A stretch of 64,000 nt of DNA from Aldrovandia affinis (taxonomy: Eukaryota > Chordata > Actinopteri > Notacanthiformes > Halosauridae): NCBI GenBank assembly GCA_029706075.1, contig JAINUG010000114.1, forward strand, positions 682,001 to 746,000, given 5' to 3'. Shown here piece by piece: positions 27,010 to 61,564 of this stretch (the first letter of the stretch is position 1; each line of letters opens with the position of its first letter). A model generated the notes under the pieces. The model was not told where the DNA came from. It made no database searches and saw nothing but the letters and a program-made list of their open reading frames with translations. Both the position numbers and the translations under genes were made by a program.

Positions 27010-30000
27010 ATGGCTGCCATAGGAGTGCACTTCGGACACACATGTGCCTGTGTGGCGATTTTCAAGGTAATTCTCCGCTTTGTTGATGCGAATGTTAGCT
27101 ACCGAGCTAAAATGTGGTAAACGGTTGTTACCTATGTGTAATGTTTTTCTTCGGCTACAAAATGGCACATTTAGCCTAGATAGCAACTATATAGCACACA
27201 TCCAGCTAACAGTAGCTAACAGAAAGGTACAATATACAAGGAGGATTGCGCCAGGCAGCGTTTAAACACTGTGTCCAAATGTTGTGTGCCATGTAAGTGC
27301 TTGCTAAGGTATTGGTAAGGTAAACCATTACTTGAAAACTATAGTAAATTAAACTGTATTTTCTTTCTTTAGGATGGGAGAGCCGATGTTGTGGCAAATG
27401 ATGCTGGGGACCGAGTCACACCCGTAGTTGTCGCATACAGAGACACAGAACAGGTAACGTTACAAGCTAACGTTAGCTACGAAACTCAAATGGCTGTCTT
27501 TGTAACGTTATCGGCAGTCAAATCATTGTCAGTTAATGTCATGTATTTCAGGTTGTTGGAATAGCAGCGAAGCAAGGCAGAATAAGGAATGCAGCCAACA
27601 CTGTGGTCAAAGTGAAACAGATTCTGGGAAGAAGGTGAAGTGTGTGTGTGTGTGCGCCCTCGGCCCCTTCATGTCATTGCACCTCAGTAGATATGCAAAC
27701 AATGTACAACTTACAGTATAAGTAAATATACAATACTAAATACTGCTTCTAACATTTTGCAGCTCGCTCTCTGGTGACGTATTCCATCTTTTGCACTTTT
27801 GTATTTATATTTTCCTCTTTATAGTTTTGATGACCCAGAAGTTGAGAAACACTTAGCTGAAAGTAAATGCCCGGTAAGTAGACCTAAGATGCAGTTAAAA
27901 TATTCTGTATGATAATTTGTGAAATTCTAATTTGACATGTTTTGTGTATTATGAACAAGGTTATCAACAAGGATAATAAGCCAAGGTATGAAATTGACAC
28001 CGGAGACACGACCAAAATCGTATCACCCGAAGAAGTGGCAAAATTAGTCTTCCACAAAATGAAAGGTAAGCCTGACTGCAACCAGTTTATAAATTGTACT
28101 AAGCAATTCAAAAGCTAATGTTGGAGGCTAATCTGTTCATATGTATTAAACAATAATCAATTGGTAAGATAAATAGTTTGTAGGTTATATTTTCTCTAAT
28201 TTGTTGACTTTTTATAGGTTTTTTCTCTCACACTTGTCTTTTGCCATTTTCAGAAACAGCTCAGTCAGCTTTGGGTTCTGACGTAACAGATGCTGTCATT
28301 ACTGTGCCTTTCGAATTTGGAGAGATGCAAAAGAATGCACTGAGGTAAGCTACAAACAATATTCTACATATGCCTCTTAAAATGATATAATATAATATAT
28401 TATAATATACAACTGAATATAGTGTTAGAAACCTAAGAGACTGAATATATGGCATAAACACTGCCCCTTCCCTTAGACAAGCAGCAGAAGGAGCTGGCTT
28501 CAATGTGCTGAGATTGATTCATGAGCCATCAGCAGCCCTGCTTGCCTATGGCATTGGCCAGGACACGGCCACTGGAAAGAGGTAAAAGTTGCAGAAAACC
28601 TTTTTTCTTTCTTTCTCATCTACAGGTGTATGCATCCCCTGTCCACAGATTGTGTAACAATGTGTCACAGACAGTCACCGCACGCAGCAAGTCCGTCATC
28701 CATTGAATGACTCAATACCAAAGGCCATGTTACATGAATAGAACTGAAAGCCATTTTTGACTAACCTAATGGAGGACATTCACATTTAATGTCCATGTGA
28801 TTGGCTTGTCATTGCCTGTTGATCAATCACTTGTATTTACTGCTACTCCTTCATCATTACATGTAACAGTGGCTAATTATTTATTTGTGAAAGTCAGTGA
28901 TCTTGCTTCCCCCCCCCCAGCCACGTGCTGGTGTACAAGCTTGGGGGTACGTCCCTCACGGTGACAGTAATGGAGGTGAACAGTGGGCTGTACCGAGTGC
29001 TGGCCACACACACTGACCATAGCACCGGGGGAGAGAGCTTCACGCAGGCCCTAGCCCAGCATCTCGCATCAGAGTTTAAAAGGTGAGAAAGCAATGTGTG
29101 CATGACCACAACTTTTAAGTACAGATAGTTTAAGGAAAGATTTTAAAAATGGATACACTTATGATATATCACAAAAACAGATGGACGGATGTTTTGCTTC
29201 GATGTAGTGCAGAGACACATTACACATTGTATTGAGCACGCCTGTATCCTCTGATTGTAGATCACCAGTGATCCTTGCACTCAGATGTTTATCACTGTGA
29301 CTGTAGGTCCTTTAAGCATGATGTCACGGGAAACCCCAGAGCCATGATGAAACTGATGAACAGTGCAGATGGTGCCAAGCACATCCTGTCCACTCTGAGT
29401 AGCTCCAACTGCTTTGTGGACTCGCTGTACGATGGGATGGACTTTGACTGCAGTGTGTCCAGGTGAGTTGGTGGTTTATAACATAGTGTGTCATATATAT
29501 CCATGTGGTGAACATAATGCCTTTGCTTAACAGTATTTGGACCATTAATGATCCTCTGACGCTTTGTTGGTCTCTTTTTCAGGGCAAGGTTTGAACTTCT
29601 ATGCTCCTCTCTCTTCAGTAAGAGCATACAGCCAATCAAAGCTCTCCTGGAGCAGGTCGGCCTCTCGAGCTGTGATATCAGTAAGGTGAAGTGAAATCTC
29701 AACTGTGGGGACTTTTGGGGAGTCATGAAAAACTGTAAAATGATGGTGTGCAACTCATCTCAAGCTGCCACCAACGTGCAGAACCCAGCAAGTCATGCAC
29801 AGCAGCCATTTTTGCATAATAACACTGTATAAATCAGATGAGTACACTACCGTATGTACTGTTCAAGAATACGTCCGTCTACCTTAACAGGTGGTGCTGT
29901 GCGGGGGCTCTGCCCGGATCCCCAAGCTGCAGCAGATGATCCAGGATCTCTTCCCTGACGTGGAGCTCCTCAGTTCCATCACCACCGACGAGGTCATCCC

Positions 30001-33000
30001 CGTGGGTGCTGCTATTGAGGCAGGGATCCTGTTGGGCAGGGATAGCTCCTCCCTGGAGGAAGATTGCATCACGGTGGACTGCTGTGCCAGGGACATCCTG
30101 GTGAAGGTAAGAAGAGAGATGGCCACACTCATGATGTCATGTGATATCAACCTAACAGAGCCTGTCCCTCAAGTACTTTTATGAAGAGAACGGACAAAAA
30201 AACCTTTCTAAACATTTGTTCAGCTTTCAAGGCTACATTGACCGTTAAGTCATATGGTGAACCTGGTATTGAGTTAGCTAGTTGTCTGAGAACAGTTGCT
30301 CAGCATTCTTGACTTGAATTGTCTTCAAAAATAGTTAGTAACAGTTTGAAATACCTCAAAAAGATCGAATTACCATTTATGAATATGGACTATTATATAA
30401 GGTGTGCTTTTGTCAGACGATGGTAGTTTTGCACAGCTTCCTTTTGGAAGGACACTCATGTGCTAAGAGCAAACACTCTTTGGTGGTAATAATAATAATA
30501 ATATATAATAATAATATATGGCATTTAGCAGACGCTTTTATCCAAAGCGACTTACAGTAGTGAATGCGTACATTTTTTCAGTGTATGTGGTCCCAGTGGG
30601 AAATGAACCCACAACCTAAGCATTGCCAACGCCGTGCTCTACCAACTGAGCCACACAGAACCTGGTACTTTAAAGTGCGTCAAAAATTCACGATTGTATT
30701 GCTTTATCAACCGTTGCTCTTAAGTTTTCAACTGAAACTCTGTTCACTGTCGCACATTGACTTCCTTTTACATCCTGGTCTGTGCTTCTGCTAAGTGGAC
30801 CATTTACCACCCAGCCAAGGGTTTCCATAGCATACGGTCTGTTATTTTGAATATTAATAACTTGCCATGGCTCTAATACTTTGGAAGCATTTATTCCAAT
30901 GAGTAATCCAATCTCTGCATTGATGGGAAGTGTAGCCTCATTCAGATAGGACCATCTTCTAATGTCAGCTTGCGAGGGCATGTCTTCTGGAGTAACAGGA
31001 ATCTTACTTTGGGTATATACTTCTGGAAGTTCCATGAAAGTGGTAGTCTCAAGTAGGGCTGTCCCCGACTAAAACAAATCTTGGTCGACCAGCAGTCGTA
31101 CTTTTTTTCCTATATGCACACTGCGCTTGTCTCATGTTTTATAACTTTCTTAAGTGAATGACACAAATGAGTAACAATAGGCTTTATGGAGCCGGAGTTC
31201 AAGATTACCTGAAAGAAAGAAAAAACGTCTCCGTTCCGAGCCTCCTCTTCATGCTTGCAGATTCTGCCGTTGCGGTATGGCCACATAATAGGCTGATGCT
31301 TTTACTTGACCACAACCATAACACATTCTAATGCGTAGGCTATGTTTTATTTAATTAACCAGGTTGGTCTCATTGGGATTTAAAATCTCTTTTGCAAAAA
31401 AATAGGCTAAAAACCAAACGATCACACATAGCCTAGTGTCTTAAATTGTAGCCTAAAGCTGAACATAAAGTGGCTATAGCCTATCCAAAATAACTTGAGT
31501 CGGAGACCATCCCATGGCCTACTTCCCCAGTCGTTTCATGTTATGGCACAGGAACAGTAGCTTGTCTACATTTTTTTGGCAAAAGGCTGCTCCTCGTTTT
31601 ATTAATGATAAACCCTGCCTTGGAAAATGCGCTTGCCAAGTTCCACTTTTTTTGGATCGTCCGCAAATAAAATGAAATTCCCAAATCCATCTTTTTTCTA
31701 TGACATGATGTTCTTCGGTTATATCGAAATTAGTAATTAAAGTATGCCTATATCACTAATCTTAACTGTAGGCAAATCTTAGGCTACAATTAAAATGCAC
31801 ATTCACGTGCCTAAAACAAGAAGGATACAATATAGGCTACATGAAAGGGGGTGTTACGCATGTTAGTTATAAATGTATAAACCATACAATTAGCAAAACA
31901 CATTTATTATAAAATGTTACTTTTATTAGTTTTGCAGAATTATTCACAACATTACTATTACCTTAACTGCCTAATATAATTTAAAGAGAACATGTATAGG
32001 CCTAGCTATGTTAAGAGTGAAGGACTGTCATTGCCATACTCGCAGCATCCAGAATGGATTATTTTACTGACAAGCACGCCGAACTGTGGCGCGAATCTAG
32101 GCGTCTCATGCTGCGTGGAGAATATTTTTTTAAATGTAAAAAAAATGTGCTCGACCAAAACAAATCTCGGTCGACCAACAGCCAATCGACCAGTCGACTA
32201 AATGGGGTCAGCTCTAGTCTCAAGCCCACATACCTCCAGTCCATGTATTCTAAAATTTACAACTGGTTTATCCTGTCCCATTGTCTTTAACAGAATATCT
32301 TGTTCTTGTTCCCCTGACATGAAGCTTTTCCATTAGCTTCTCGATGCAAAAGGTTACTGAACTGCCCAAATCCAAGAATGCATGTGTTTGAGGTGTGTTT
32401 GATTTCAACAGGCAAAATGGCAAGACTGCAATTGTTGTTGCTGGCCCCAGTGTAGAAAGAGAAATCATAGCACTGCATTAGGTCTCATCACTGGTCTCTC
32501 CAGCAGACCTTTCCCTTTTAACAGTTTTCCTCTTTGATATGAACATGTAGCAAACTGGGCTGCTTTTTCTGACATATTGCAAATCATTATTTTCTTTCAG
32601 TCTCTGCTTGTGTGTCCTCCAGTTAAACACCAAAAACAAACCCCTTTAGTTCTGAGAAACTCCATCTTTTGTTTGTGGGGTTTTACTTTCAATTTTTTAC
32701 ACAATTCCATTGTGTGGTCTCCTGAACAGAACAAGCATGGCTTTAGAAGTACAGCTTTGTTATTGATATCCTGTGTCTTTTCGGATGGGTATTCACTTTC
32801 ACAGGCTCAACAGGCACTGCTGATATAGCAGTGGCAAAGTTGCTCCTGCTTCCTGGCTTGAGCTTAGGCAGGGGTCTTGTATCAAAAGGCTTGTTTCCTG
32901 GAATCTTACCAGGGATGGTATCATGAATATCACCAAATACTGGATCTGATGCAATTTTAGCCTACAATTTTTTTTTGATGCAATTTTAGCTGTTAACAAA

Positions 33001-38400: not shown

Positions 38401-41286
38401 GACATTCTCTTTTTTTAAACAATTTTTTACACGTTTATTTTTAGAAGCAGCACGTTTGCACCATGAGTAATCTTTAATGGAATTAATGATATTCCACAGC
38501 ATGTAATGTTTGCATTTTTATTTAAATACAAAGTACATTTTTGACCCAAAAATAGCTATTGACTTGTAGTTTCTAAACAGCAGCCACACTCATCTGAAAC
38601 AAGGTTCAGCTGAACTGCTAAGCAGACAGCAGACTCACCTGCCTGCTGAACTCCTCGCTGAGGTTAGTGAAGAGGTACTCATAGCCGTACGCAGCCTTAC
38701 AGTTCATCCACACCACATGGTACGGACTGAGGGCGATCCAGTTTCTAATCAGTTTCCTTATTCCATTCAAACAGGCCTCCTGCAATGATACAAGATACAG
38801 GAATGTAAAAACTGATGCCAGTCAGTTAAAAAAATATCTATATATTTTTTTTAGATACACGTGATATAAACAATCACATACTGTAGAATATATGGCACAA
38901 CTGGGGTGGTGGCCTGCAAACTGATTTTAGCCACAAAGTAAGTTCCCCAACATATGTAGCTTGTCTCATTGGCTCATTTAGCAATGCCTTTGATATAATA
39001 TAGCTGGTAACTGAAAATACACTAGCTATGGGTGGTGATGAAAGGTTTAAAATTGAGTACTAATCCAAGCTATGTTATATTAGAGAATGTATATATACAT
39101 ATATATATATTGTACACTGCCCGTCCAAAAAAAAGTCACACACTAATATTTCGTTGGACCGCCTTTAGCTTTGATTACGGCACGCATTTGCGACCACTCT
39201 TTTCCGACCACATTTCTTCCTCGAAGATGATGGTTCACCACTATCCTTCCAGGTTTTAATAATGCGTTGGACAGTTCTTAACCCAATTTTAGTAGTTTCA
39301 GCAATCTCCTTAGTTGTTTTCTTTGCTTGATGCAGGCCAATAATTTGACCCTTCGAAACAGATGAACATCTTTTCCACGACCACAGGATAGGTCTTCCGA
39401 CATGGTTGTTTAAGAAATAAGAAGCTACTCACTGCATCAGTTAGGGTTAAATAACTTGTTGCCAGCTAAAACATATTAATCACTCCAGTAATTATCCAAT
39501 GGAAGGCTCTTACCTATTTGCTTAGTTAAATCCAGGTGGTGACTTTTTTTGGCCAGTCAGTGTATATATACATATAAAATATACAGTGACAGAGTGATTG
39601 TGAGATGACTCACCCTGCTTGGGATCTGGAAGAAACTGGGGTCACAAAATGTTGTATCCACATAAACGCTCTGAATGTCTTTCACCCTAGAATCAAAGAA
39701 TGTTTACAGAGTGTACAGTACAGCACATTATGGTTTTGGCAGTTATTACATTAAATGGCTATGTTAGACCATATTTCTTCAGGCACTTTACCTGCCCCCT
39801 GAGTGCAGGAACTCCATACGGGCCACCTCCCCTTTCGCCAATCTGAAATCTCCAGTGTAGAGCACTGTCCCTTGGTTTCCCTCTATAAGAAACCTGTCAT
39901 ACCACATAGCACAGATAAAATTTATAAAAATTGAGCCGAACAAGATCCAGACATTTGTTTCCAGGCAGATTTTTTTACAGTGGTTGACAAAGGTATAAGT
40001 TCCAAAGATGTGATATTTCCCACAATTATGAATGTACTTTCTCTTGTATTTTTACTTTAGCAAAAATTTTTTTTGGAGCATTGGAATTTCAAATGTATAA
40101 AATGTTATAAATGGCAATTGTGCACATACATGACTGATCCTGGACAGTGGCCAGCAGGAAGCAGTGTCACCACAATGTCTTCTTTCTATAACCAATACAA
40201 ACACAATTGACTTGCTCAGAACACTAATTAAATGTGCTTTTATTGGTATTTGCGAGGATGTCTTGCAAATTACCTCCCCTGACATTTCGTCCACCAGTGA
40301 GATTTGAGTTGGATTGTCCACTTCAAGGGCAACCTGTAGTGCCACCATCATCAACATTGTGAATACACAACAACACATAGAAAATCAAACTGTATTATGT
40401 CAACTGTACCAGGATCTATAAGTCATATCCTTTTCAGGATGAGTTGTTACTTACAATATGATCTTCCCAGAAGTGATATTTTGGATTGTTTAGTAAAAGT
40501 TCTTTCGTCACAGGTGAGCAGTACAATTTGACGGTTAAGCTAAAACAGATTCAAAATAATAAATAATTAGTTAGCAACACAATGAAAACATTTACTACAA
40601 AGTATTAGCTCATGAATTTCTGTGCTGTCCATATACTGACTAGCAGACTTTAAGGACGCCACGAATCTTCCGGCCCCACTTCCATGTTTCCTTGCGAACA
40701 ATAATAAATCGTTGTCATCTAGCCGACTTATCCAGCTAGCTAACGTTACTCTTTTTAATAGATGGCTAACTTGGGACATTTGCGCTGTATCTACTCTTTG
40801 CAACTAGCCAGTTTACCTACATTTTCACACCAGGCAGTGACCAACGTTAACCATTACCTAACATACTGTCATACATACTTTACCTGAACTTGAGTTTCCT
40901 TTTAAGCAAAGGTCCTTTCAGTCCTTTCATATGATCTGTGGGAAACAAAGCAGTCAACTAGCTATGGTTACAAAGAAAGACAAGCAAACTAGCGAGCTAA
41001 CGTTAGCGACAACTAACCTTAGCTGACTAACTACATAACAAACTAGCCTGCTTCAAGCCGAATTAACGTTACTTATATTGGTAGCTAGACTGCCATTTTG
41101 AGTAGTTTGTTAAGGTTAGCTGCTTAGCATACACGGCTAGCTAGATAGATCGTAAAACAATACAATGCTAGCTTTACCTTTATGACAATGAGACAAAAAA
41201 TAGGCTCTGGCATGTAAATTATCACGATCGAATCGGTCCAAAGATATGGTGGAATATTCCTTCATGCGACCTCCGAATGAGCTCAT
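35412..41286 (-). CDS. dclre1c: Artemis nuclease (DNA cross-link repair 1C), 14 exons, 673 aa
   Basis: Exons (minus order): 41178-41286, 40884-40935, 40455-40539, 40274-40333, 40130-40185, 39792-39893, 39614-39686, 38639-38779, 38185-38286, 37826-37962, 37432-37486, 37053-37141, 36645-36742, 35412-36274; 2022 nt, phases consistent. Artemis is the nuclear metallo-beta-lactamase/beta-CASP nuclease that opens hairpins in V(D)J recombination and trims ends in NHEJ. The catalytic residues fall at the human positions: H33, H35, D37 and H38 (HCHKDH, split by intron 1), H115 (AGHCPGS), D136 (YTGDF), D165 (VDTTFCD) and H319 (FSFHSS). The last exon encodes the disordered acidic C-terminus. It has WEAFF (W520, F523, F524), which corresponds to the human ligase IV-binding W..FF motif, and [16 protein letters not shown]. 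Human is 692 aa. Introns contain a SINE and a Tc1-type MITE. Confidence 0.97.
36831..37040 (+). mobile_element. tRNA-derived SINE in dclre1c intron 12
   Basis: The head has tgtagtgtaatggttagggt (A-box) and gttgctggttcaattccctg (B-box). The body is cccttgagcatggtacttaa, and the tail is tctggataagagtgtctgct then aaaatg. Partial relatives are at 18755-18925, 42710-42780 and 52405-52500. Confidence 0.85.
39115..39562. mobile_element. Tc1/mariner MITE in dclre1c intron 7
   Basis: The ends CACTGCCCGTCC-AAAAAAAAGTCAC and (complement) GTGACTTTTTTTGGCCAGTCAGTG are imperfect inverted repeats, and TA flanks both sides (39113-39114 and 39563-39564). The inside keeps remnants of a transposase N-terminus on the minus strand (gcctgcatcaagcaaagaaa, HTH-like) but no open frame. 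Confidence 0.75.
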
Positions 41287-41994: not shown

Positions 41995-42620
41995 TTTAAG
42001 CATTTAGCAGACGCTCTTATCCAGAGCGACTTACAAAATGTGCATTAATACATGGTAAGAACAATCATAGTGCGCGCAAGAAATCAGTGCAGTAGGCTAA
42101 TACAGCGATAGACATCGTTGTTGGCAGCTGCATACCATACCTGTAACACTGGCAAGAAAAAGGTTAGTATAAAATATATATATATAGTATGCCATTTAGC
42201 AGACGATTTTATCCAAAGCCACTTACAGTAGTGAAGACAAAAAAATGTTGAGGAGTAAGCAATACAAAAAGTTATATACAAAAAGTATTGAACAAGTAGG
42301 CAGTGGTGATGATAATTGGCTAGATGCACAGAATTCAGTGGTAGTGGAGTCTGAAAAGGTCGGAAGATCGCAAGTGATTCCGCGGTCCTGGCCGTTTGCA
42401 GAAGGTAATTCCACCACCGAGGGGTCAGGACAGAGAAGAGGCGAGACCGTGAGAAGCGGCTGCCGGGCGTTCAGAGGAATGGGACAGTCAGTTCGCCAGA
42501 GGAGACGGAGCGGAGGGGTCTGGCTGGGCTGTAGGGTGTGATGAGTGTCTCGAGGTAAAAGGGGGAGAAGTTCCTCTAGCCGTTTGATAAGCCAGCACCA
42601 GTGATTTGAATATGATATGT
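41995..42620 (+). repeat. Teleost dispersed repeat, two overlapping copies/segments
   Basis: It starts gcatttagcagacgctctta (41999), then gtgcgcgcaagaaatcagtg. A second gccatttagcagacgatttt head starts at 42190. It then continues with aacaagtaggcagtggtgat, gtggagtctgaaaaggtcgg and a GC-rich block (tcctggccgtttgcagaagg; gggctgtagggtgtgatgag) that extends the family seen at 11800-12030. The open frame at 42245-42541 is part of this repeat, not a gene. Confidence 0.7.
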
Positions 42621-43438
42621 GCATCAGTGCAAATGTGGGCTCAAATGATCTGATGATCTCTGACTTGTAGCATATAAACATTTGCAATCAGAAGACTGGC
42701 ATCTCTGTCAGGTCACTTCTGTTGTACACTTGAGCAAGGTATTTTACCTGATTTGCTTTTGGCAAATGTATTAAAGGATAATAGCCAACATATGTAAAAG
42801 GGATGGGCTAGGACAGAGTCATCAGAGGACCACCACAGAACCAATGAGAAAAAATATTTATGGGCCCCTGACAGCAGGTAGAGGAAGGTGCATCTACTGC
42901 ACATTCTAGAATGAGCTTGAACATAAGACTGTCTTTGTGATGCCAGCTCTGTCTACACTGATATCACATTGTGATATCATAAAGGATGAAATCTAGATAA
43001 ATATTGAAAACACTTGAAAACTCTCATCGTGACAGTGTTTTGCAATCTATCCAAGAATTTGATTTGACATCTCCTTTCATTCTGAAATATGTCATAAAGC
43101 ACGATGTTTTCATCTGGAAGAACTGAGGTAAAGTAGCTTGACATCCAGACATGTGTTCCATCCATATTTTTTACCTTTCATCTTTTTAAATAATATTTGG
43201 CAGATTCTTATTGGAAAGGATAGCTAAACTTTCATTAGAAATATGAGTGTATTCATTCTAAAAAACTGGGTAGGAGTGCTATATTAAGGCCATCTACCAA
43301 TTTATCCTGGACCCTTTTTATTTGGAATAAAAGTATGTAACATATTGAGATTTCTTCCCACTGGGGAGTTTTCTCTTCCCACAGGAGAGGTTTTGCAATA
43401 CTTTCTGCTTTTTGGGGGTTCAGGCCTGGTCATTTCTG
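42621..43438. other. Intergenic, only a SINE scrap
   Basis: 42710-42780 is a scrap of the 36831-type SINE (tacacttgagcaaggtattt). The missing first exon(s) of the 43.6-47.4 kb gene might lie here, but I could not identify one. Confidence 0.35.
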
Positions 43439-43618: not shown

Positions 43619-45186
43619 CACTATCCAAACTGGTCCAATGTGCCACTACCTCTGGGAACACAATACATTCAGCCGCCACAATTTCCACTATCGCCAGGCT
43701 CCGCCTACTTTATGTCACCTGCATATAACGGCGGCCTCTTCATTCCTCCTGAGTACGACAGCAGCTTATCACCATTCCACATGGTAAACCTCAAAACGAC
43801 CTATTTTGTCATGTACTGTATCTATTGTGAAGAAACACTAAAGATTTGAAGTAACTGAGAACAGACAGGAGGGTGTGTGCTTGTGTATTAGAGAAAGAGA
43901 TGTGCAACATATGAGGGAGTGGTTCTTTATTGCTGCAACTCTACCTGTCTGCTTTGTGGTTCTGACCTTTACCCTCTGCCTCTTTGCTTCCCTACTAGTT
44001 TCCAGCAGGGCTTGCTACAAGCATGTACAGACCACCTTAACCTCAGGTGGCAGACCAATTTAACAGTAGAGTCCTAAATACTAGATATAATTCATAGAGT
44101 AGTGGTTGAATGGAGGGGAGCCCAAGGGCATTCATTCATATTGGATAGAAAATTGTCCAGATAAAAGGATCTGTTTAGATCCCTTTCACATCAAGCAGAA
44201 ATACGATATCTGATATGGTAAAAACTTAAATCTGAATGGGCGAACACTGCTTTTTTATTACTGCATTTGACCGTCTTTTCCACTTTGTGAATGCAATTTA
44301 TATACAGTACATTTTCAAGTTCTGAAAGGAAAACAAAGTAAAATTTGATGTGGTATCACATGCGGTATCTCAATGTGAAAAGGGTATAAGTCTATGAAGG
44401 ACACTGCTGTGCTTCACAAGCATCAGGTAACACTTCCTTGTCTCCCCCTATACATTGAGGATGCCTTTTCAGATGGGTATAAGACATGTCTGATCAGTCA
44501 CAAATGTGCTGTACTAGTTCTGTATCAGTAGGGGCTTTCTCTGTGGATGTCGCTTCGTTGCCTTTGACACTGGAAAATAGAATTCCTGCTCGGTCTCTCT
44601 CTCAGCCTGTGATCCTCTCACCTTTACTTTCTCTTGGAGAAGGATACCTCTTCTTCACTATTAACATCAGCAGAAATCTTTACTTTCTTCTGTTACTATG
44701 GTTAATAATCACAACCTAGTATGTGGATGTGTTATTAAAGCTGAAACAAAAATTGTGTGTATGAAAGAGTGAGTGTTTTAACTGAAGAAGATCAACTGAC
44801 ATCTCTCCTTTTTGCTCCTGTGTAGTCTTATTGCCCAAGCTGGTCCTGCATTCTGGGCAGCTCGCTGTGCCCCATGGAATACTTCCCATTTGGGCCAGGC
44901 TCCGCCTGCTGCTTCCCTCCTGAATACAACAGCAACATTTTCATCCCTCCTGGATACAACAGCTGGCCATCACACATGGTATATATACATATATATATGG
45001 ATCTAGCTTCACCCTCACACACATGCACATAGATACAGAGTTATACAGTTATATGCACATACAACCACACACACAAAGGAAGGGAATGTTTTTCTAGGGT
45101 TGTCTATCTCTCTACTGTCCACTTCAGAGAAACAGAATATCATAAGGCTGATTTGTTTCATAACTCCTGTGTGTGTGTGTGTGTGT

Positions 45187-45232
<46 letters not shown>

Positions 45233-47398
45233 ATGTGTGCTTGTGTGATCTGCAATGGAAATTGAAGAAGTCCCAGGGTCTTCTTGCAGAGTGTATAAGG
45301 CTGTGTAGGTCCTCTCTCCTGGTTCAGAGACACTGAAGAAAGGGGTTAAATTTCCAGCTCTGCCATTCTTTAGGCTTCCTCTCTCAGGTTAAATTCTATA
45401 GTTAAAGATCCGCTGTCTCTACTCTTCCTTTACAGAATCACCAATGGAGTCATTTTCCTACAGTTCAACAGGATCTGGCGTATGGCGGAATGCCTATAGA
45501 CCAACAGGATCTGGTGTATGGTAAAATGCCTGACCACAGCCCTGCTAACCCTGAAACCAACATTACTGACTATTGCTTCACTGACAGTAGCAGCATAGAC
45601 ACAGGTGAGTGAACGAATACAGCACAGGGAAAATTCAGACCCAATGCAGTAGGTTTTTAGCTCTGCTGGATCTCGCTCTGCAGCTTGAATTGGAACTTGA
45701 TGTAGACAACATTTAATTTGTATATTTCTGTGTTCTCATCCACTCTTGTGTATTGTTTTTGAATGGGCAGAGATGTCTTACTTGGCTTTGACTGCAGAGA
45801 ACATGAATGATAGCCTCACTTGTCAGGCTCATAACTATGAGCCTGACTACTTTTTTATTCCTATGTGGGATAACTGCCAAACTTCTGCAGATGTGCTTTG
45901 CTAATAAACCGATGGTCAGTTACTACACCTGGCGTATTGTGTAGATGGGACTCCAATTGGAGGCGGCGATTTAAAACTGGAACATTCTCTGGTGGTGTTT
46001 CGTAAAAGATTGCAGAAAGCCTAGGCCAGAAAAGTTAACAAAACTGTCAAAACTGTCAAGAGATTGAGCATCTGGAGTTGAGATGACAGCCACATGAATT
46101 TCCTGTGTTTCTGTTGGTAACACCCCTGCCCCCCTGTCCACAGTGGAGTGTGAGTCAGGGTGTGCCCCCCAACACTGCCCAGCCATGTCCAACATCAGGG
46201 AGGAGCAGCTGAATATCATTGAGGAAAATCAGCATGCCAACGATATGAGCGTCAGTAGGGGGGATGATATCCATACAGTTTTAAAATGTAGTTTCATTTT
46301 GGCAATAGAATGGCTATGCTGTTTCCCAATGAGCAAGTATTGTGCAGCTGTAGTAATTTAATACAGTACTAAACCTTCATTGTTGAATCACTTGGCCTCA
46401 TTTGACAAGGTGGCTGTGTTCTTACTCTATTACTGAAAGCAGGTTTATCAGGCCCCAACAGAACTTTGAAGGGATGGGAGGAGCTATATGTGATGGGAGG
46501 TGGCAGTAGGACGTAGGCAGGGCCAGGGAAAGTCTGGCAATGTGGTATTGAGGTGGTCGGATGGTATGGGCTTGATAGGAGCTATGTTCTCATGATCTGC
46601 AGAAAGTGGACCTTGTTCCTAGAAAATATTTGGAGAAGCCTGGCAGGATGCAGACATTGTCCAAGGAGTCCACTCATCAACAGAACGGAGAAGTCATTAT
46701 CTGGGAGACAGCTGTGCCAAAGGTGACTTCACCCTTCACATGTTTTCAAGCCGTCCACTCGGGGCTGTGCCTCAGACATTTAACTCAGGAGTGAGACGGC
46801 TCCACACGTACATTTGCACATATCCAGTGCGACTTAAACAGCTTATATTTTTTACCTACAATCCATTGGGATGATTGTTGTCAATATGATTGCTGCGTCT
46901 TATTTTGTCAAATGTTATTTACGTTTCTATTAATAATGACTGATTTCATTCATCATATCTCCTTCTGTTTAACAGCATCTGGCTGGGGCATTGAATGGAA
47001 AAGAAGGGCGATATTTGAAGTTTGTGAAGCGGCGCTGTGGTGGAATGGTCTACATCTCCACACATCCTCATACCCAAGACTATATGATCTGTAACATAAT
47101 GGGTGAGTCTCCTCTACTTTGTACTCCCTGACAATGACTGGTCTGAGGAGGGTGAAGTGGTGGGTGGGTACTGCTGTCATTTATTACTTCTAGTGTTTCT
47201 TTAATTTTATTTTTTGTATCAGGCACAAAGAACCAAGTGAACAAAGCACTGGAGTTGATAAGGGCAAAGGTGAAATATCATGACCTGAAAAACATCTACT
47301 CCCCTCCTCTCGTGACATTTGGGCCGCCTCTGAGTGAAGCCCAGACCCCAAAGACAGGTCATCATGGACACATCTTATCATGGGTGAAGCCTGTGTAA
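43619..47398 (+). CDS. Unnamed gene: duplicated Tyr/Pro-rich exons plus an AKAP1-type KH domain (5' end not found)
   Basis: Exons read by phase: 43619-43783, 44826-44978, 45436-45604, [45771-45904 alternative], 46144-46250, 46603-46722, 46976-47102, 47223-47398 (TAA). Joining without the alternative exon gives a continuous frame. The first two exons are diverged duplicates (NWSNVPLPLG..., FIPPEYDSS; SWSCILGSS..., FIPPGYNSW), rich in Tyr, Pro and Phe. The third carries a 12-residue repeat, QQDLAYGGMP / QQDLVYGKMP. The last three give VIIWETAVPK then HLAGALNGKEGRYLKFVKR, MVYISTHPHTQDYMICNIMG and TKNQVNKALELIRAKV. This is the KH domain style of AKAP1, with the GxxG loop kept as GKEG. It ends about 40 codons later, without the Tudor domain that follows KH in AKAP1. 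An RNA-binding role is an inference. A polyA signal is at 47686-47691. The acceptor at 43619 implies at least one more upstream exon. Confidence 0.72.
45167..45230. repeat. (GT)n microsatellite
   Basis: A 64-bp GT run with one AT interruption at about 45191, inside an intron of the KH-domain gene. Confidence 0.95.
45771..45904 (+). CDS. Alternative terminal exon of the KH-domain gene
   Basis: The acceptor gggcag follows a pyrimidine-poor intron, and the exon enters in the same phase as the exon at 46144, so the two are interchangeable after 45604. It encodes EMSYLALTAENMNDSL and EPDYFFIPMWDN and stops at 45902-45904. The stop overlaps an AATAAA (45903-45908). Use of this exon would give a short isoform lacking KH. 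It could also be a relict exon that is skipped. Confidence 0.5.
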
Positions 47399-48580
47399 GT
47401 CAGATGATGAGGTCAGCAGGGAGGAGGACCCCGACGGAGCTGTTCTATGTGATGCCTGAGAGAAAGGAGAGCCTAAAGCAACCAGGGGTTTCAGGAAGCT
47501 CCACAGGGTTGTGATGTGAAAGACATTTTGTTTTACTCTGTCAGGGATAACATTGGTTTGCTGTGTATTTATGTTTAACTGCCCTGTACATACAATTGAC
47601 ATACATAGCATTCCTTTTGTATTGTGATTTAATATGAAATGGAAATTTGAATGAATTACTCTAAGGAGGCTTGACTTGATTAATTAATAAATCAAGAAAC
47701 TGAACTCATTGTTGATGTACTGAATAGAATTTGCCCATCTGAATCCGCTGGTCAATGGAGATACATTTTCTTCATGATTAGTGAAGAACGGTCTTTGTAA
47801 ATCACTGCCATTTGATTTAATTGTGAAATCTATGCTACTGGAAATATTTTCATTGCAACTGTAAACCAAGGCAATATCAAACTCATTGCAGCAGGACTTC
47901 AGTGTACCTTCAAAAAAAGTTTACTTTTCTAGAACATAAAGGAGATGGAATTTACTATATAAGAGTACCATGAACCATGGGAGACAAAAATAAATAAATC
48001 AAAAAGGTCAAACAGGACATATAATTCAAAATACATGTGTCACATATCAGAAATAGAAGCATCCATTTCAAATAAATTATATGTTGTATCAGGACCAATA
48101 TATTACAATCTCAAAACTATTTCCGATGTTAAAAAAAGCAATGTTACTCACATACACAAGGCACATACTCTAATACTATATCAGTCAATACACACTTGCT
48201 AAAATTAGCCAGCCTACCTAATTATGAACATCAAATGGAGTACTCAAAATACCACATTATCTAAATATCTAAATTCAATACTCGTGGTTCTTGCTGGCTC
48301 TGTCATTATTGGCTTCTGTGTACTGTTTTGTGGATCGAAGGTGGAAGAGCCACACGCAGATCTCATGTTTATCTAAAAGCTGAACGGTAAGCGATCAGCC
48401 ACTAAATCTGAAAACAGACTAGGGAGCGGGGAAACAAAAAAAAACCTTGGGACAAAACTGCACGGGAATAAACTCAACAGAAACAGCCCAATAAGGGCGA
48501 ACGCTTCTCACCGAGGTGCGTGGAAAATAAATGGCTATCGAGACTTTAGCTCTGGGGAACAATAGCCCTGACAAACAAAG
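47399..48580. other. 3' UTR and intergenic, nothing recognised
   Basis: No Tudor-domain exon or other coding exon is found downstream of the KH gene stop. AT-rich. Confidence 0.45.
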
Positions 48581-49630: not shown

Positions 49631-50200
49631 CAGTGGAACCTCAGCCCGCGAACGCCCCTACTCACGAACAAATCGGCCCACGAACACACTTTCCGAACAA
49701 ATTTTCACTCGGCCCGCGAACAAGCCCTCGGTGCACAAACGCACAAACACACAAACTCGCGGGCTTCTCGCCGTAGCGCGTCGTGGATAGCGTCAGTTGT
49801 GCTTAGTACTCAGCGTTGTTTACATCGTTCGTCGTTGTGTTCTCCTTTGATACACGTTCTTTTTGTGCTATTTCCATAACATTTGCCCTCATTATGGCTC
49901 CCAAGAAAGTGAAAAGTGCTACTGATAGTGGTGTTAAGAAGCCTAAACGTATTACAGTAGAAACAAAGAAGGAAATAATAGCTAAACGTGTGGTGTTCGT
50001 GTTTCCGATCTCGCCAAGCAGTACGACATGGCTAAATCGATGATCTGTACTATCCTAAAGAACAAAGATGCGCTAAAGGCGGCTGATGTGGGGCTGGAGA
50101 ACGGATTAATTGGATTTACATTAATTTCAATGGGAAAAAAAAATTCGGTTCGCGAACGGAGTCAACGAACGAATTAAGTTTGTGGGCCGAGGTGCCACTG
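49631..50200 (+). mobile_element. pogo/Tigger deletion element, 570 bp
   Basis: The terminal inverted repeats CAGTGGAACCTCAGCCCGCG and (complement) GGGCCGAGGTGCCACTG are flanked by TA on both sides. The inside starts a CENP-B-type HTH transposase at the ATG 49894: MAPKKVKSA, KKPKRITVETKKEIIAK, then a frameshift, then VSDLAKQYDMAKSMICTILK. The DDE core is deleted. Internal GTTCG/CGAAC repeats are typical of this subfamily. Confidence 0.88.
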
Positions 50201-53117: not shown

Positions 53118-56100
53118 ATGTTTTATGTGACCCAGCCCTTATTAAAATGTAGCCTGACCTCCATGGTGGTCTTCTCTGGAATTCTGCCAGTACCACGTGC
53201 TAGCAAAGGCAAGCAGAATTTTATATGGAGATTTAACACGTGGCTACAAACCTGGTGCAGGAAAGAGGGGTACAGGTTTATGGGGCACTGGGACTCCTTT
53301 TGGAACAGGGGTGACCTGTACAAGTGGGACGGGTTACACTTGAACCGGAGGGGTACAGATGCATTGGGCCAGCGTATGCTTAGGGTAGCGGAGGAATATT
53401 TAAACTAGGGACTGGGGGGGCAGGGAGGGAAATTAGTAGTAGTAGTATTATTTATTTATTTTTATTTATTTCATTTATATAGCACCTTTCATACCACAGT
53501 AACTCAAAGTGCTTTACATACATAGTCACAGATACATACAAAAGCAAATATATAATGAGTATAAAATACACTACGGATTTAAAAACAAATCCAACACATT
53601 ACAAAACAAAAGAATATTACAAGTATAAATTAGTCGCTAGGATAGGCGAGACAAAATAAATGTGTTTTAAGATCTCGTTTAAAAGTGACCACATTCTCAG
53701 CCATTCTCAAGCTCTCTGGGAGTGTATTCCAGAGCCTGGGGGCATAAAAACTAAAAGCTGCCTCTCCCTGTCTCTTTGTCCTGACTCTTGGAACCACCAG
53801 GAGTTCTCTGTCAGAGGACCTCAGAGATCTACTTGGAAAATATCTCACCAGCATATCCGAGATATATCTAGGCGCACAACCATGCAGTGATTTATAGACT
53901 ATTAAGAGGATTTTATAATCTATTCTGGAGTTGACCGGTAGCCAGTGCAGTGATTTCAAAACTGGTTTGATGTGTGTTCTTCGTCTCGTCTTTGTAAGGA
54001 CTCGTGCTGCAGCATTCTGTATCAGCTGCAGCTTATAAATTGGTTTCTGATTTGATAGACCAGCCAAGATGGTGTTGGAATAGTCTAACCTGCTAGAAAT
54101 TAATGCATGTATCACTCTTTCAGTATCCACCTGCGAGAGGAAGGGTTGCACCTTGGCGATGTTTTTCAGGTGATAAAACGATACTTTTGTTATATTTTTT
54201 ATATGAGTCTCGAAATCCAAGTCAGAGTCTATTATTACACCTACATTTCTGGCCTGGCACTTGGGTTTAAGATCCAGTGTATTTAGGTGTGCAGAGCTTC
54301 TCTCGCTTAGCTTTATCACCTATGATCAAAATTTCAGTTTTGTCCTGGTTTAATTGTAGAAAGTTTTGTGACATCCATACATTTATATCAGCAATGCATT
54401 GTATAAGGCAGTCAGCAGGACTATAATCGTTGGGTGTCATGGAAACATAAAGTTGTGTGTCGTCAGCGTAGCTATGGTAATTAACATTGTGTTGCTTTAT
54501 GACATTGCCAAGGGGCAGCATATATAAACTGAAAAGTAACGGTCCTAAAATCGACCCCTGAGGGACCCCACAGCTCATCCGATGTTTTTTGGAGCTGTGG
54601 TCACCTAGGCTGACAAAATATTCCCGTTCAGTCAGATAGGTCCTGAACCAGTTAAGGACTGGACCTGAGAGGCCAACCCAGTTTTCAAGTCTGTCAATGG
54701 GAATATCATGATCCACGGTATCAAACGCAGCACTTAGATCTAGCAGAGCAAGAATCGAAAGCTTTCCAGAGTCATTGTTCATTCTCAGATCATTCACAAC
54801 TTTGACTAATGCTGTCTCTGTACTATGATGAGAGCGGAATCCAGATTGAAATATATCAAATGTGCAATTTGCCTCTAGAAAAACATTTAGCTGTTTGAGT
54901 ACGGTCTTTTCCAGAATTTTGCTTATGAATGGGAGATTCGAAATTGGTCTATAATTGCTTAAAACTGAAGAGTCTAAATTGCTTTTCTTCAAAAGGGGTC
55001 TCACCAGAGCAATTTTAAGAGGCGATGGGAAAATGCCTGTCTGTAGAGAACAATTTACGATGTTCAAGATGTCCTCCGACATGGATAGGGAGGTACAGAC
55101 TGCCCAGATGGAAGATACCAGGGTGGAGTATAATACATCTGAGGATATAATTAATAAAGATTTTTTAGATCATAATGTGAATAGAGGTGGTCCAGGTATA
55201 AACTCATTCGTTTCTTGTGAGGACATCTGGATTAGATTATTGGGAGATCATGAGAAGGGCCTTAATATAGGAGTATGCTATAGACCTCCAGCTTCAGACA
55301 GTAACATAAATAGTACGCTCTTTGGTAACAAAACAAATCTGTGCTGAAGGAGAGACGATAATAATGGGCGACTTCAATTACCCCTCTATTAATTGGGAGA
55401 TAGTGACAGGTCAGGGCAAATGTGAAGAGGAGTTTTTAGATATGGTCAATGACTGCTTTTTGGTACAGTCTGTTACTCAGCCTACGAGAGGGAGATCAAT
55501 ACTGGATCTGGTTTTGTGTAACAATCCTGATGGAATTTGCAGCACAGAGGTAGGAGAACCAATAGGGGCAAGTGACCACAGTGCAGTTATTTTTGATATT
55601 TTTTGGCAAGTTAAGACAGCCTCCTCTAACTCTCGAATTTTTAATTTTAGACGAGCTGACTTCAATAAAATGAGAGAGAATTTAAGTAATATAGATTGGG
55701 TAGAACTTCTAGATTGCAGAACTGTGAACTGTGTGAAAAATGGACTATAATAATAGACTATATTTAAAAGGGTTATTGTAGATGTACAGTGTAAATCTAA
55801 AATGACCTATTTTTTCCAATAGGATGAAAAAACAGTCTCCGCAGTGGATGACTAAATCTTTACAGGAGATTTTGAGGCAAAAGAAACGACTACAGAGTAT
55901 ATAAAAAGGATAACTCAGAGAGAAACAAGTTAGATTATTGTAATATGCGGGCTAAGGCTAAAAAGGAAATAACTTTGTTGAGAGCTTTACTAGAGAAGAG
56001 GTTATAAATATGCCTAAATGTATAGACAAGGTACAGAATGTGTTGGAGGACTTTGAGATAAGGGACGTAGAAATACTACAAAAACTACAAAAACATAAGA

Positions 56101-57620
56101 CAAATAAGGCAGCAGGCCCGGATGGTATATATCCCAGAGTACTCAAAGAACTGGGGAAAATGATATATAAACCATTGACAGATATTTTCATTCAATCCAT
56201 AATCACTGGAGAAATACCAGATGACTGGAAGCAGGGTAGTATAATTCCAATATATAAGAAGGGGGACCGTACTGAACCAGGGAACTATAGGCCTGTCAGT
56301 TTAACTTGCATCGCATGTAAAATGCTGCAATGTATTATAAGGGATAAGTTGGAATCATTCTTGAAAAATAATAGTATTTTAAGGGAGAGCCAACATGGAT
56401 TTCTCAAAGGGAGGTCATGCCTAACAAACCTGGACTTTTTCGAAGAGGCTACAAAGTGTGTTGACCTGAACCAGGCTTATGATATTATATATTTGGACTT
56501 TCAGAAAGCATTTGACAAGGTACCACATGAGAGGCTCATTGCGAAAATGAATTCAGTAGGAATTGCAGGAGTGGGTTCATAATTGGCTGCAAGGGCGAAT
56601 ACAAAGAGTAACAGTAGGTGGGGCCGTATCTGACCTCGGTGCTGTGGGCAGTGGTGTCCCGCAGGGATCAGTGCTGGGACCTCTGCTCTTCCTTATTTAC
56701 ATAAATGATCTTGACATGGACATTAGTAGCAAAATAGTAAAATTTGCAGATGATACTAAACTTGGGGGTTTGGCAAACAGTTTGGAATCGACTAAAGTCA
56801 TCCAAGGTGACTTAAACAAAATCCAAAAATGGGCAGATACATGGCAGATGACATTCAATATTGCTAAATGTAAAGTTATGCATGTGGGAAATAAAAACAT
56901 TAGACAGGAGTATTTTATGGGAGGAGAAAAGTTAGTAGGTGTTCAATTTGAAAAGGATTTAGGAATTGTAGTTGATCAAAGGCTATCTGCATCAAAGCAG
57001 TGTGCTACAGCAGTGAAAAAATCCAACAGGATGCTGGGATACATAGCAAAAAGTATTGAGTATAAATCAAAGGAGGTTATATTAATGTTATATAACGCCT
57101 TTGTCAGACCGCACTTATAATACTGTGTGCAGTTTTGGGCACCGCACTACAAGAAAGATATTGAAGCTCTTGAAAAAGTCCAAAGAAGGGCAACTAAACT
57201 GATACCTGGTATGAAAGGTAAAAGTTATGATGATAGACTTAAGGCACTCAATCTATTTAAACTTAGCAAATGCAGACTTAGGGGGGATTTGATTGAGGTT
57301 TTTAAATTCCTAAAAGGGATTAACAAAGTAAAATACCAAAGATTTTTTAAGATAAGTGGGGTCAGCAGAACAAGAGGCCACAGGTGGAAATTAGTTAAAG
57401 GCAAATTCCGCACAGATATTAGGAAGTTTTTCTTTACACAGAGAGTTGTCAATGCCTGGAACAGCTTGCCAGGTCAGGTAGTAGAGGCAGAAACGCTCGG
57501 GCTATTCAAGGCCAGGCTAGATGTAGTACTAGATGTTCTTTAGATTAGGACATGATGAGCCAAGATGGGCCGAATGGCCCGTTCTCATCATTATGTATTC
57601 TTATGTTCTTATGTTCTTAT
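53118..57620 (+). mobile_element. CR1-type LINE, two ORFs, interrupted by a reverse LINE
   Basis: 53118-53408 is the end of an ORF1 with an SGNH-esterase-like block (VVFSGILPVPRAS, WDGLHLNRRGTDALGQRML), typical of CR1-clade ORF1. After the nested insert, 55083-55750 is an AP endonuclease (GVCYRPPASD, IMGDFNYPSINW, GASDHSAVIFD). 56010-57120 is the RT (AAGPDGIYPRVLKELG, YLDFQKAFDKVPHERL, SGVPQGSVLGPLLF, catalytic FADDTKLGG). 57127-57543 is the C-terminal block (KVQRRATKLIPGMK, AWNSLPGQVVEA). It ends with gggccgaatggcccgttctc and a short TTATGTTC-type tail. There are frameshifts (near 55330, 55750-56000, 56570) and a stop at 57118, so it is inactive. Confidence 0.88.
53430..55082 (-). mobile_element. 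L2-type LINE (minus) nested in the CR1 LINE
   Basis: Minus-strand frames 55082-54267 and 54319-53630 give an RT with SNYRPISNLPFISKILEK, LDLSAAFDTVDH, GVPQGSILGPLLFSLYMLP, catalytic YADDTQLY and FLQLNQDKTEILIIG. The C-terminal block is RLDYSNTILAGLS, LHWLPVNSRIDYKILL and APRLWNTLPESLR. One frame change at about 54290 separates the two halves. The 3' end (53434-53530) is the fish tail tgtaaagcactttgagttac then tatataaatgaaataaat, read on minus. The endonuclease is missing (5' truncated). Confidence 0.88.
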
Positions 57621-58862: not shown

Positions 58863-58878
58863 GTAAAAGAGTCTGAAG

Positions 58879-61564
58879 ATGGAGCTCAGGCCATTTGCAA
58901 TGTGTGTCGCACTGTGTGCCGTCTACGCTACTAGCAAGCCCATGGAAAAGAAGGACCGCATCCATCATGACCCACAGCTGAGCGACAAAGAGCACAATGA
59001 TGGCGAAAACTTTGACTACGACCACGAGGCCTTTCTGGGTCAGGAGGAAGCCAAGACCTTCGACCAGCTTACCCCTGAGGAGAGCAAGGAGCGACTGGGG
59101 TAGGAGGCTGATCTGAGATCTGCCTTACAGAGTGGGCAGACAGAGCAATAAAGCTGTAAAAATGTATATGCAGGTAGTGGCCAAAAAGGTGGAAATAGCA
59201 ATATGATACAACTATGGTATCCTGCTCTTGAGTGTTCTTGACGAACCATTCTTGATGAAACTATGCTTATGCCCTAAGTTTGCAGTCAATTGATTTAGAG
59301 TTCCTCGCCTGTTTAGCCTTGCACGTCAAACTAATGCAGACATCACAATCTATGAGTACTTCCAACCACAATTGCCTTTTGTTAATGATGTGAGTTCCAT
59401 GCCGACATCACCTTTGACACTGTTCCTCATGAAACATCAGCAGGATGAGCGGTCTTCATCTCTGAAGTCCCTGCCAAGTGTGCCCCAACAATCACCCCTC
59501 TACCAAAGTCACTGCAGTCTTGTCTTCTAGTCATAATTATAGGCAACCAGGCCTGGTCAGCATTTTTTACATGACCCTAAGCATGCTAGGTTGTTAATTG
59601 CTTAACAAACTCCGGAACAACACCTGTGTGGAAGCACTTGCTTTCAATATACTTTATTTCCCTCATTTACCGAAGTGTTTCCACCTTTTTGGCCACTAGC
59701 TGTATGTACACTTAACATTAAAATGTGTGCGTGCATGTGTGAACGTTGGCCTCAGTGTGTAGCAGTAGCAGCCCCTGTGTGAAGGACATGACAGTTTGCT
59801 TACATTATCCACCATTGTCTGTGTATTGTTGTATGTACTGTTGATTGTTGTATTGTCTGCAACTATTATGTAGGCCTACTGCTGCTACCCTGGCCAGGTC
59901 TCTCTTGAAAAAGAGATTTCAATCTCAAAGATACTTCCTGGTTAAATAAAGATTTAAATAAAAAAACTATACAAATCTGTCTTAATCTAGCATCTGCCTT
60001 TCCTGACTGTCTGTTCCTTCCCTCCACAGAAAGATTGTTGAAAAGATTGATGAAGACAAAGATGGGTTTATCACAACAGAAGAGATGAAGAAGTGGATCA
60101 GGTTTGCGCAGAAGCGTTGGATTTACTACGATGTGGACCAGCAGTGGAGGGCACATGACCTTAATGAAGACGGATTGGTTACATGGGAGGAGTACAAAAA
60201 TGCCACGTATGGCTACATCTTAGGTAGGTCTATCTGGCCCCATCTTGCTCCCTCTCTTTAATGTAACTGATTCTCCTGTGATTGTCACCTCATTTTATTC
60301 TGTAATGTGACTGAACGGTCCTCTTCTCTCAGATGACCCTGATCCCGAAGATGGCTTCAACTACAAGCAAATGATGTCCAGAGATGAGAGGCGCTTCAAA
60401 ATGGCCGACAAAGATGGAGACCTCATCGCCAACAGGGAGGAGTTCACCGCCTTCCTGCATCCAGAGGAGTATGATTACATGAAGGATATTGTAGTGGTGG
60501 TACGTCCGCATTTGCCAGAAACCTCCTGAGAGATCATAAAAGAACTGTTACACCGGGGAAACCTGCAGAACCTGAGTTTGGAGCTAAAAATAAGCACATG
60601 AACCACAGCTCTGGAGCTCTGAAAAGAGTCTGTGGCTGAAATCTGTCAGGACACACTGATCTGTGGGTCCCTTGTTAGGAGCTTCAGTATTTTTCACAGA
60701 TTTTAATGATCTGGAACATTACAGTGTACTGTGTCAATGCTCATCATATGTCAGGTATCTGAACAATGTCATGAAGGTGAAGGGTCTTTCTGCTGTTCTC
60801 TATTTTCTTAACAGGAAACTATGGAAGACATCGACAAGAATGGAGACGGCCTCATAGATTTGGAAGAGTACATTGGTAGGTTTGCAAGGGAATGCAGTGA
60901 ATGTGACTGTGTATATGACTTGAATTTGAAACATTTTGTTTGGAAACTCAGTGTGTCTGTGGATGGGGGTGTTTGTCTCTGGAAACTGGACACATGACTG
61001 GCAACCTGGGTGCATGTCTCTGGATGCAAGCACATGTCTGGATGCGGTCACTAGTCTGTGGACCTCTGTATGTGTCTGTGGATGCAAGTGGCTTGTGCTT
61101 GTATTTACTATGGTGTTTCGGCTCCTCGATCCCTCCCAGGGGACATGTACAATCACGAGGGCGACCCCGAGGAGCCGGAGTGGGTCAAGATTGAACGCGA
61201 GCAGTTCATTGAGTTCCGAGACAAGAACAAAGATGGAAAGATGGACAAGGACGAGACCAGGGACTGGATCCTGCCCTCGGATTACGACCATGCGGAAGCA
61301 GAAGCCAAACACCTGGTGTACGAGTCAGACTCTGATCAGGTCAGTCCCTAGGTCTAAGTTTGGTAGCCTTGTAAAAAAACAATCTATTTTTGCACCAATG
61401 TCTAAAGGCATGATTATAGTCATGTTTGATTTCTCATTTTGGTTTCATTCTGATTTCAGGATGGCCAACTCACCAAAGAAGAAATAATCAACAAATATGA
61501 CTTGTTTGTTGGAAGCCAAGCAACGGATTTTGGAGAGGCCCTCGTACGGCATGAGGAATTTTAA
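58879..61564 (+). CDS. calu: Calumenin, 6 coding exons, 315 aa
   Basis: Coding exons: 58879-59099, 60030-60223, 60333-60499, 60815-60875, 61140-61339, 61460-61564 (TAA 61562-61564); 948 nt, all GT/AG and in phase. Calumenin is a CREC-family Ca-binding protein of the ER and secretory pathway. The first exon gives a signal peptide ([19 protein letters not shown]) and a His/Asp-rich linker ([23 protein letters not shown]). Six EF-hand loops follow in order: [60 protein letters not shown] and [12 protein letters not shown]. The N-glycosylation site NAT in KNATYGY is kept. The C-terminus HEEF is the ER-retention signal (human HDEF). Length equals human (315). The start exon carries 16 bases of 5' UTR behind an acceptor (CCCCAG), so an upstream non-coding exon exists. 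A polyA signal is at 62548-62553. Teleosts have calua and calub; I cannot tell which this is. Confidence 0.96.
59850..59965 (+). repeat. Repeat tail with the CCTGGTTAAATAAAG motif in calu intron
   Basis: It reads gccaggtctctcttgaaaaa, gagatttcaatctcaaagat, ttcctggttaaataaagatt and then an A-rich end. Minus copies of the same tail lie near 19237 and 31355. Confidence 0.6.

Follow-up and report, generated by a model that had tools for sequence, protein, structure and literature searches.

A probable akap1 paralogue with a KH domain and duplicated Tyr/Pro-rich exons next to Artemis in Aldrovandia affinis

The window analyzed here comprises 64,000 nucleotides of the Aldrovandia affinis assembly GCA_029706075.1 (contig JAINUG010000114.1, hereafter C158, positions 682001-746000), and all positions below are counted from its first letter. 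Its forward strand carries at 43104/43619-47398 a spliced gene that we call the KH gene. As the earlier note had stated, this gene lies beside Artemis (dclre1c): the start of the Artemis coding frame is found on the minus strand at 41176-41286 (exon end approximate), head to head with the KH gene, and 37 aa of it match Protein artemis in phmmer with E=1.7e-15. Between the two genes, at 41998-42250, two short interspersed repeat-like stretches sharing a 'tttagcagacg..ttatcca' motif were noticed by eye, and the true first exon of the KH gene may possibly be hidden there. Further upstream, a frame at 29888-30181 (+) resembles by eye the end of the HSP70-like HSPA14, consistent with the HSPA14-Artemis neighborhood of vertebrates. 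Downstream of the KH gene, frames with calumenin-like EF-hand features were seen by eye at 58867-61348 (+). Long LINE-type reverse-transcriptase-like frames were also recognized by eye at 7387-8726 (+), 53630-55169 (-) and 55310-57543 (+), and a frame at 49893-50177 (+) begins with MAPKKVKSATDSGVKKPKRITVETKKEIIAKR, presumably resembling the start of a Tigger/jerky-type transposase. Base composition gave no clear signal, and the KH gene protein had no match in the viral contigs searched.

Our analysis revealed seven exons within 43619-47398, with GT-AG at every internal border and phases (0-0, 0-0, 0-1, 1-0, 0-0, 0-1 and 1-end) that fit a single frame. The first two are Tyr/Pro-rich units, both of phase 0-0, located at 43619-43783 (unit 1, 55 codons) and 44826-44978 (unit 2, 51 codons). 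In the spliced frame they are followed by a linker exon at 45436-45604 (phase 0 in, 1 out) and an acidic linker exon at 46144-46250 (phase 1 in, 0 out). The exon at 46603-46722 holds further linker and the start of the KH domain, as judged from the Pfam KH_1 match, and ends in ...VIIWETAVPK| at an intron position shared with akap1. The KH core with its NGKEG loop occupies 46976-47102, and the last exon (47223-47398) supplies the last KH helix, an NIYSPPL tail, SW, VKPV and the stop codon, with an AATAAA polyadenylation-type signal 3' of it at 47686-47691 (+). Donors were scored with a simple matrix built from consensus frequencies; the donor after 46250 (AGC|GTCAGT) reaches 1.44, compared with 3.93-12.33 for the other six. 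For the first coding exon, the region 41.3-43.6 kb was searched for ATG-to-donor stretches shorter than 240 nt, with a donor score >5 and phase 0. The best of the four candidates obtained, at 43104-43127 (+; MFSSGRTE, phase 0 out), is an unproven candidate for the true first exon, and its addition gives 1041 nt and 346 aa without stop or frameshift. Judged from this frame, the KH gene looks like a real, split and apparently working protein-coding gene.

The earlier note had described eight phase-matched exons. Its phase-consistent open frame and GT-AG borders hold, while the count has to be corrected to seven. The additional exon was probably 45771-45904, which is superfluous for phase and whose sole in-phase GT (45822, GTCAGG) is poor. 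The likeness of this stretch to the exons at 43619-43783 and 44826-44978 was at chance level, being reached by 471 and 832 of 2000 shuffles, respectively.

That the two Tyr/Pro-rich exons arose by duplication, as had been proposed, is borne out by their alignment score of 101, which none of 2000 shuffles reached. Constraint on them is mild, with dN of 0.44, dS of 0.88 and pN below pS in 973 of 1000 codon bootstraps. Among the 106 residues that they encode, 20 are F, Y or W, 20 are Pro, four are D or E and none is K or R. This agrees with the aromatic/proline-rich character ascribed to the N-terminal exons and, in composition, corresponds to a sticker-like make-up. A protein search of the same genome with E up to 10 found no relatives of the front end: the 11 matches of the whole protein comprised seven of its own exons, two akap1 pieces and two weak matches, the latter falling outside the front end.

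The KH domain forms the C-terminal third of the protein. KH_1 was the sole Pfam family listed for the KH gene at E up to 10 (E=1.4e-6), and its 28.4 bits exceed the gathering score of 21.5 bits. The same assembly (1.22 Gb, 2576 contigs) was then used for genome searches, which were run exon by exon with the best candidates alone being scored. The best and only clear non-self match was the KH domain of akap1 on contig C1782, with 51% identity over the KH core and E=5.9e-8. The C1782 gene is a conventional akap1, with a front exon that has a hydrophobic start, KH exons and then Tudor exons. In the reverse search from akap1, the KH gene was the best other gene (E=2.7e-9), the next one having E=7.1e-4. 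Furthermore, both genes carry the KH introns at the same two places and in the same phases (VPK|H in phase 0 and G| in phase 1), and the exon between them measures 127 nt in each. In a KH tree the two were grouped at 100/99 with end branches of 0.39 (KH gene) and 0.34 (akap1), both flagged by the program as long and resting on few columns; the tree held 40 of 81 rows, those with fewer than 58 letters having been left out. The attribution to an AKAP1-type KH thus stands on the Pfam match, the reciprocal akap1 match, the shared introns and the tree. We consider it very probable, from these sequence comparisons, that the KH gene is a paralogue of akap1.

The two sequences share 54 of 102 aligned residues, with dN of 0.37 and dS of 1.61. 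This dS is near saturation. Over the 102 aligned codons pN was lower than pS in all 1000 bootstraps. Moreover, dN is below half of dS (0.80), an expectation that assumes equal time on both sides and a KH gene side free of constraint, and the constraint is therefore not wholly on the akap1 side. The KH domain of the KH gene is under constraint. In the genome search, no likeness to akap1 was found for the protein outside the KH region. A likeness just before the KH domain (SSIDTVECESGC vs NSMDSVDSGC) is weak, being matched by 36 of 1000 shuffles, and intron positions there differ. In the fish akap1 itself (L021 2806-2950), the KH exon end and its donor are, by eye, tandemly repeated inside the intron: one additional copy is complete (about 55-60 bases) and another is partial. 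A copy was matched in the akap1 search.

Comparison with known systems places the KH gene closest to AKAP1 (S-AKAP84, AKAP121, AKAP149; MDI in Drosophila). In addition to KH sequence and KH intron positions and phases, the two share the IIWE...VPK lead-in and the N[IL]YxPP tail after the KH domain. However, the KH gene differs by another front end, by an Asn before GxxG and by the lack of a Tudor match and of an akap1-type mitochondrial start, and no large middle region was found in it. Its solved-structure matches were mostly general KH domains, with that of hnRNP K first (E=2.4e-6); this likeness is that of KH domains in general, and the akap1 KH of the same genome is far closer. Like AKAP1, TDRKH belongs to the broad class of proteins that combine KH and Tudor. 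A search with the fish akap1 matched solved TDRKH chains, while the 22 solved sequences that the KH gene matched at E up to 10 include none. The front end of Bucky ball/Velo1 is aromatic and Pro-rich, of the same general kind as that of the KH gene. On synteny, identity with Bucky ball was rejected: the neighbors of buc are kbtbd2-avl9 or rnf31/rnf152 (PMC5080839), whereas here the neighbor is Artemis. Among the titles and abstract openings listed in literature searches, none described an akap1-like gene that is KH-only or duplicated in teleosts. Automatically annotated fish records may already hold the KH gene under an akap1-like name.

With regard to the Tudor domain, whose absence had been noted before, the akap1 Tudor as a query gave 18 matches in the genome, and a search with Pfam TUDOR (E up to 0.001) found 29; C158 has none of either set. 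The akap1 Tudor itself was among the 29, and the search is therefore able to detect that kind of domain; a very diverged Tudor exon could escape the exon-by-exon procedure, in which the best candidates were scored. The KH tail exon of akap1 ends in ...SW|GTAAGC. The KH gene reads ...SW followed by GTGAAG (donor score 3.84) and appears to read through this place, ending after V-K-P-V, so that its stop lies four codons past the position of the akap1 donor, which suggests a route for the loss of Tudor. The mitochondrial start of akap1 is likewise without a counterpart on C158, in line with the earlier note. The first 190 aa of akap1 gave two matches, akap1 itself and one of E=1.78 on another contig, and none on C158, and the highest 19-residue hydropathy is 0.62 in the KH gene vs 1.23 in akap1. 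Judged with the candidate first exon, the protein would thus have no N-terminal anchor of the akap1 mitochondrial type.

The residue directly before the GxxG loop is an Asn (LNGKEG), in a codon read from one assembly, and the loop itself (GKEG) is intact. KH type I domains typically have a hydrophobic residue at this position. Asn was present there in none of the 96 other KH pieces of the genome, 92 of which carry I, V, M or L. The genome yielded 105 KH_1 matches, with the split KH gene not among them. In the first 80 rows, for which the akap1 piece was replaced by its spliced form, the pre-loop residue is I in 55, V in 10, M in seven, L in four, T in two, A in one and C in one, and never N; a few of these rows are degenerate KH domains that lack a complete GxxG. 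The sole C (L081) resembles intron read-in. Of the remaining 25 matches, 16 cover the position, all with Ile by eye, and nine start past it. By alignment of the loop, the Asn corresponds to Ile304 of FMRP, the fragile X protein, which is altered in I304N; the FXR1 KH has been modeled on an FMRP template with the loop I(N)GKNG spanning I304-G308 (PMC3428290). In mouse brain, FMRP with I304N no longer binds RNA or associates with polyribosomes (PMC2779495). Changes of this type are reported to deprive other KH domains of RNA binding as well (PMC2779495, PMC3428290), to unfold some of them and to leave others folded, with residual RNA binding in some reports (PMC2779495). An Asn at this position therefore implies that the usual RNA grip is gone or that other changes compensate. 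The RNA binding of the KH gene may survive, considering the intact GKEG loop and a net basic KH domain (12 K/R vs 5 D/E).

How the protein may work can be read in several ways. The earlier note had proposed a working RNA-binding condensate protein, in which the Tyr/Pro-rich front drives assembly and the KH domain binds RNA. An aromatic and Pro-rich front end without K/R, the intact loop and the basic KH domain would suit such a protein, as would the finding that mRNA binding by AKAP1 needs its KH (PMC12650760). However, the pre-loop Asn, seen in none of the 96 other KH pieces, speaks against it, and mRNA recruitment by AKAP1 needs both KH and Tudor (PMC12650760), the latter not having been found for the KH gene. 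The Asn thus somewhat weakens the RNA-granule idea, a granule or germline role is conjectural, and we regard a condensate protein of this type as rather unlikely.

It is improbable that the locus is a decaying gene or pseudogene derived from an akap1 duplicate, with the loss of Tudor and anchor, the weak donor and the Asn as steps of decay. The donor after 46250 and the mild constraint on the front exons would fit decay, but 1041 nt are free of stops and frameshifts, the KH dN lies below half of dS when equal time is assumed, and the KH branch (0.39) has about the length of that of akap1 (0.34). It is very improbable that the locus is an akap1 copy with its Tudor exons located farther 3' or hidden in an assembly gap: akap1, complete with Tudor, resides on a different contig, C158 has no match to the akap1 Tudor or Pfam TUDOR, and AATAAA follows the stop at 47686. 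In favor of such a copy, a GTAAGT (47395-47400) overlaps the stop codon, and the position of the akap1 donor is occupied by TGG|GTGAAG.

Built on the computed coding frame, akap1 kinship, KH constraint, missing Tudor match, exon duplication and Asn, the explanation that we favor, with somewhat better than even confidence, is an akap1 paralogue reduced to KH and acting as a soluble adaptor with a weakened RNA grip. According to this explanation, the paralogue would have kept the KH exons with both KH introns and lost the Tudor exons, probably via decay of the donor after the Ser-Trp codons, after which the frame would run four codons into the former intron and stop. An unrelated front end, Tyr/Pro-rich and devoid of Lys and Arg, is built from a duplicated 0-0 phase exon and may provide weak multivalent contacts. 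The product would most likely be a soluble adaptor, in which the folded KH domain binds to itself or to partners while its classical RNA grip is weakened by the pre-loop Asn. A self- or partner-binding role is preferred because the KH-Tudor region of AKAP1 self-associates in an RNA-dependent manner, according to a title cited in PMC7072574 (Rogne et al., 2006), and because the Asn is of the I304N type. The mechanistic part, namely the route of Tudor loss, the adaptor function and the RNA grip, is put forward tentatively and with less than even confidence.

AKAP1 brings mRNAs to mitochondria, for which both KH and Tudor are needed (PMC12650760). In human AKAP1, mRNA is no longer recruited when the GDDG loop is mutated or Tudor is missing, whereas recruitment proceeds without the PKA helix (PMC12650760). 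What is new here is the pre-loop Asn in an akap1-type KH of a fish. It is conceivable, though we hold it doubtful, that the KH gene is a vertebrate AKAP1 paralogue whose KH domain was maintained by selection while a natural counterpart of fragile X I304N became fixed in it, so that KH has turned from RNA binding to protein- or self-binding and is coupled to a new, duplicating Tyr/Pro-rich assembly region. If true, a KH-only, off-membrane relative of AKAP1 with a changed RNA-pocket residue would show how a scaffold can be rebuilt, and the RNA role of an AKAP1-type KH could be separated from its other roles. The KH gene would then offer a natural test of what a KH fold does without an RNA grip.
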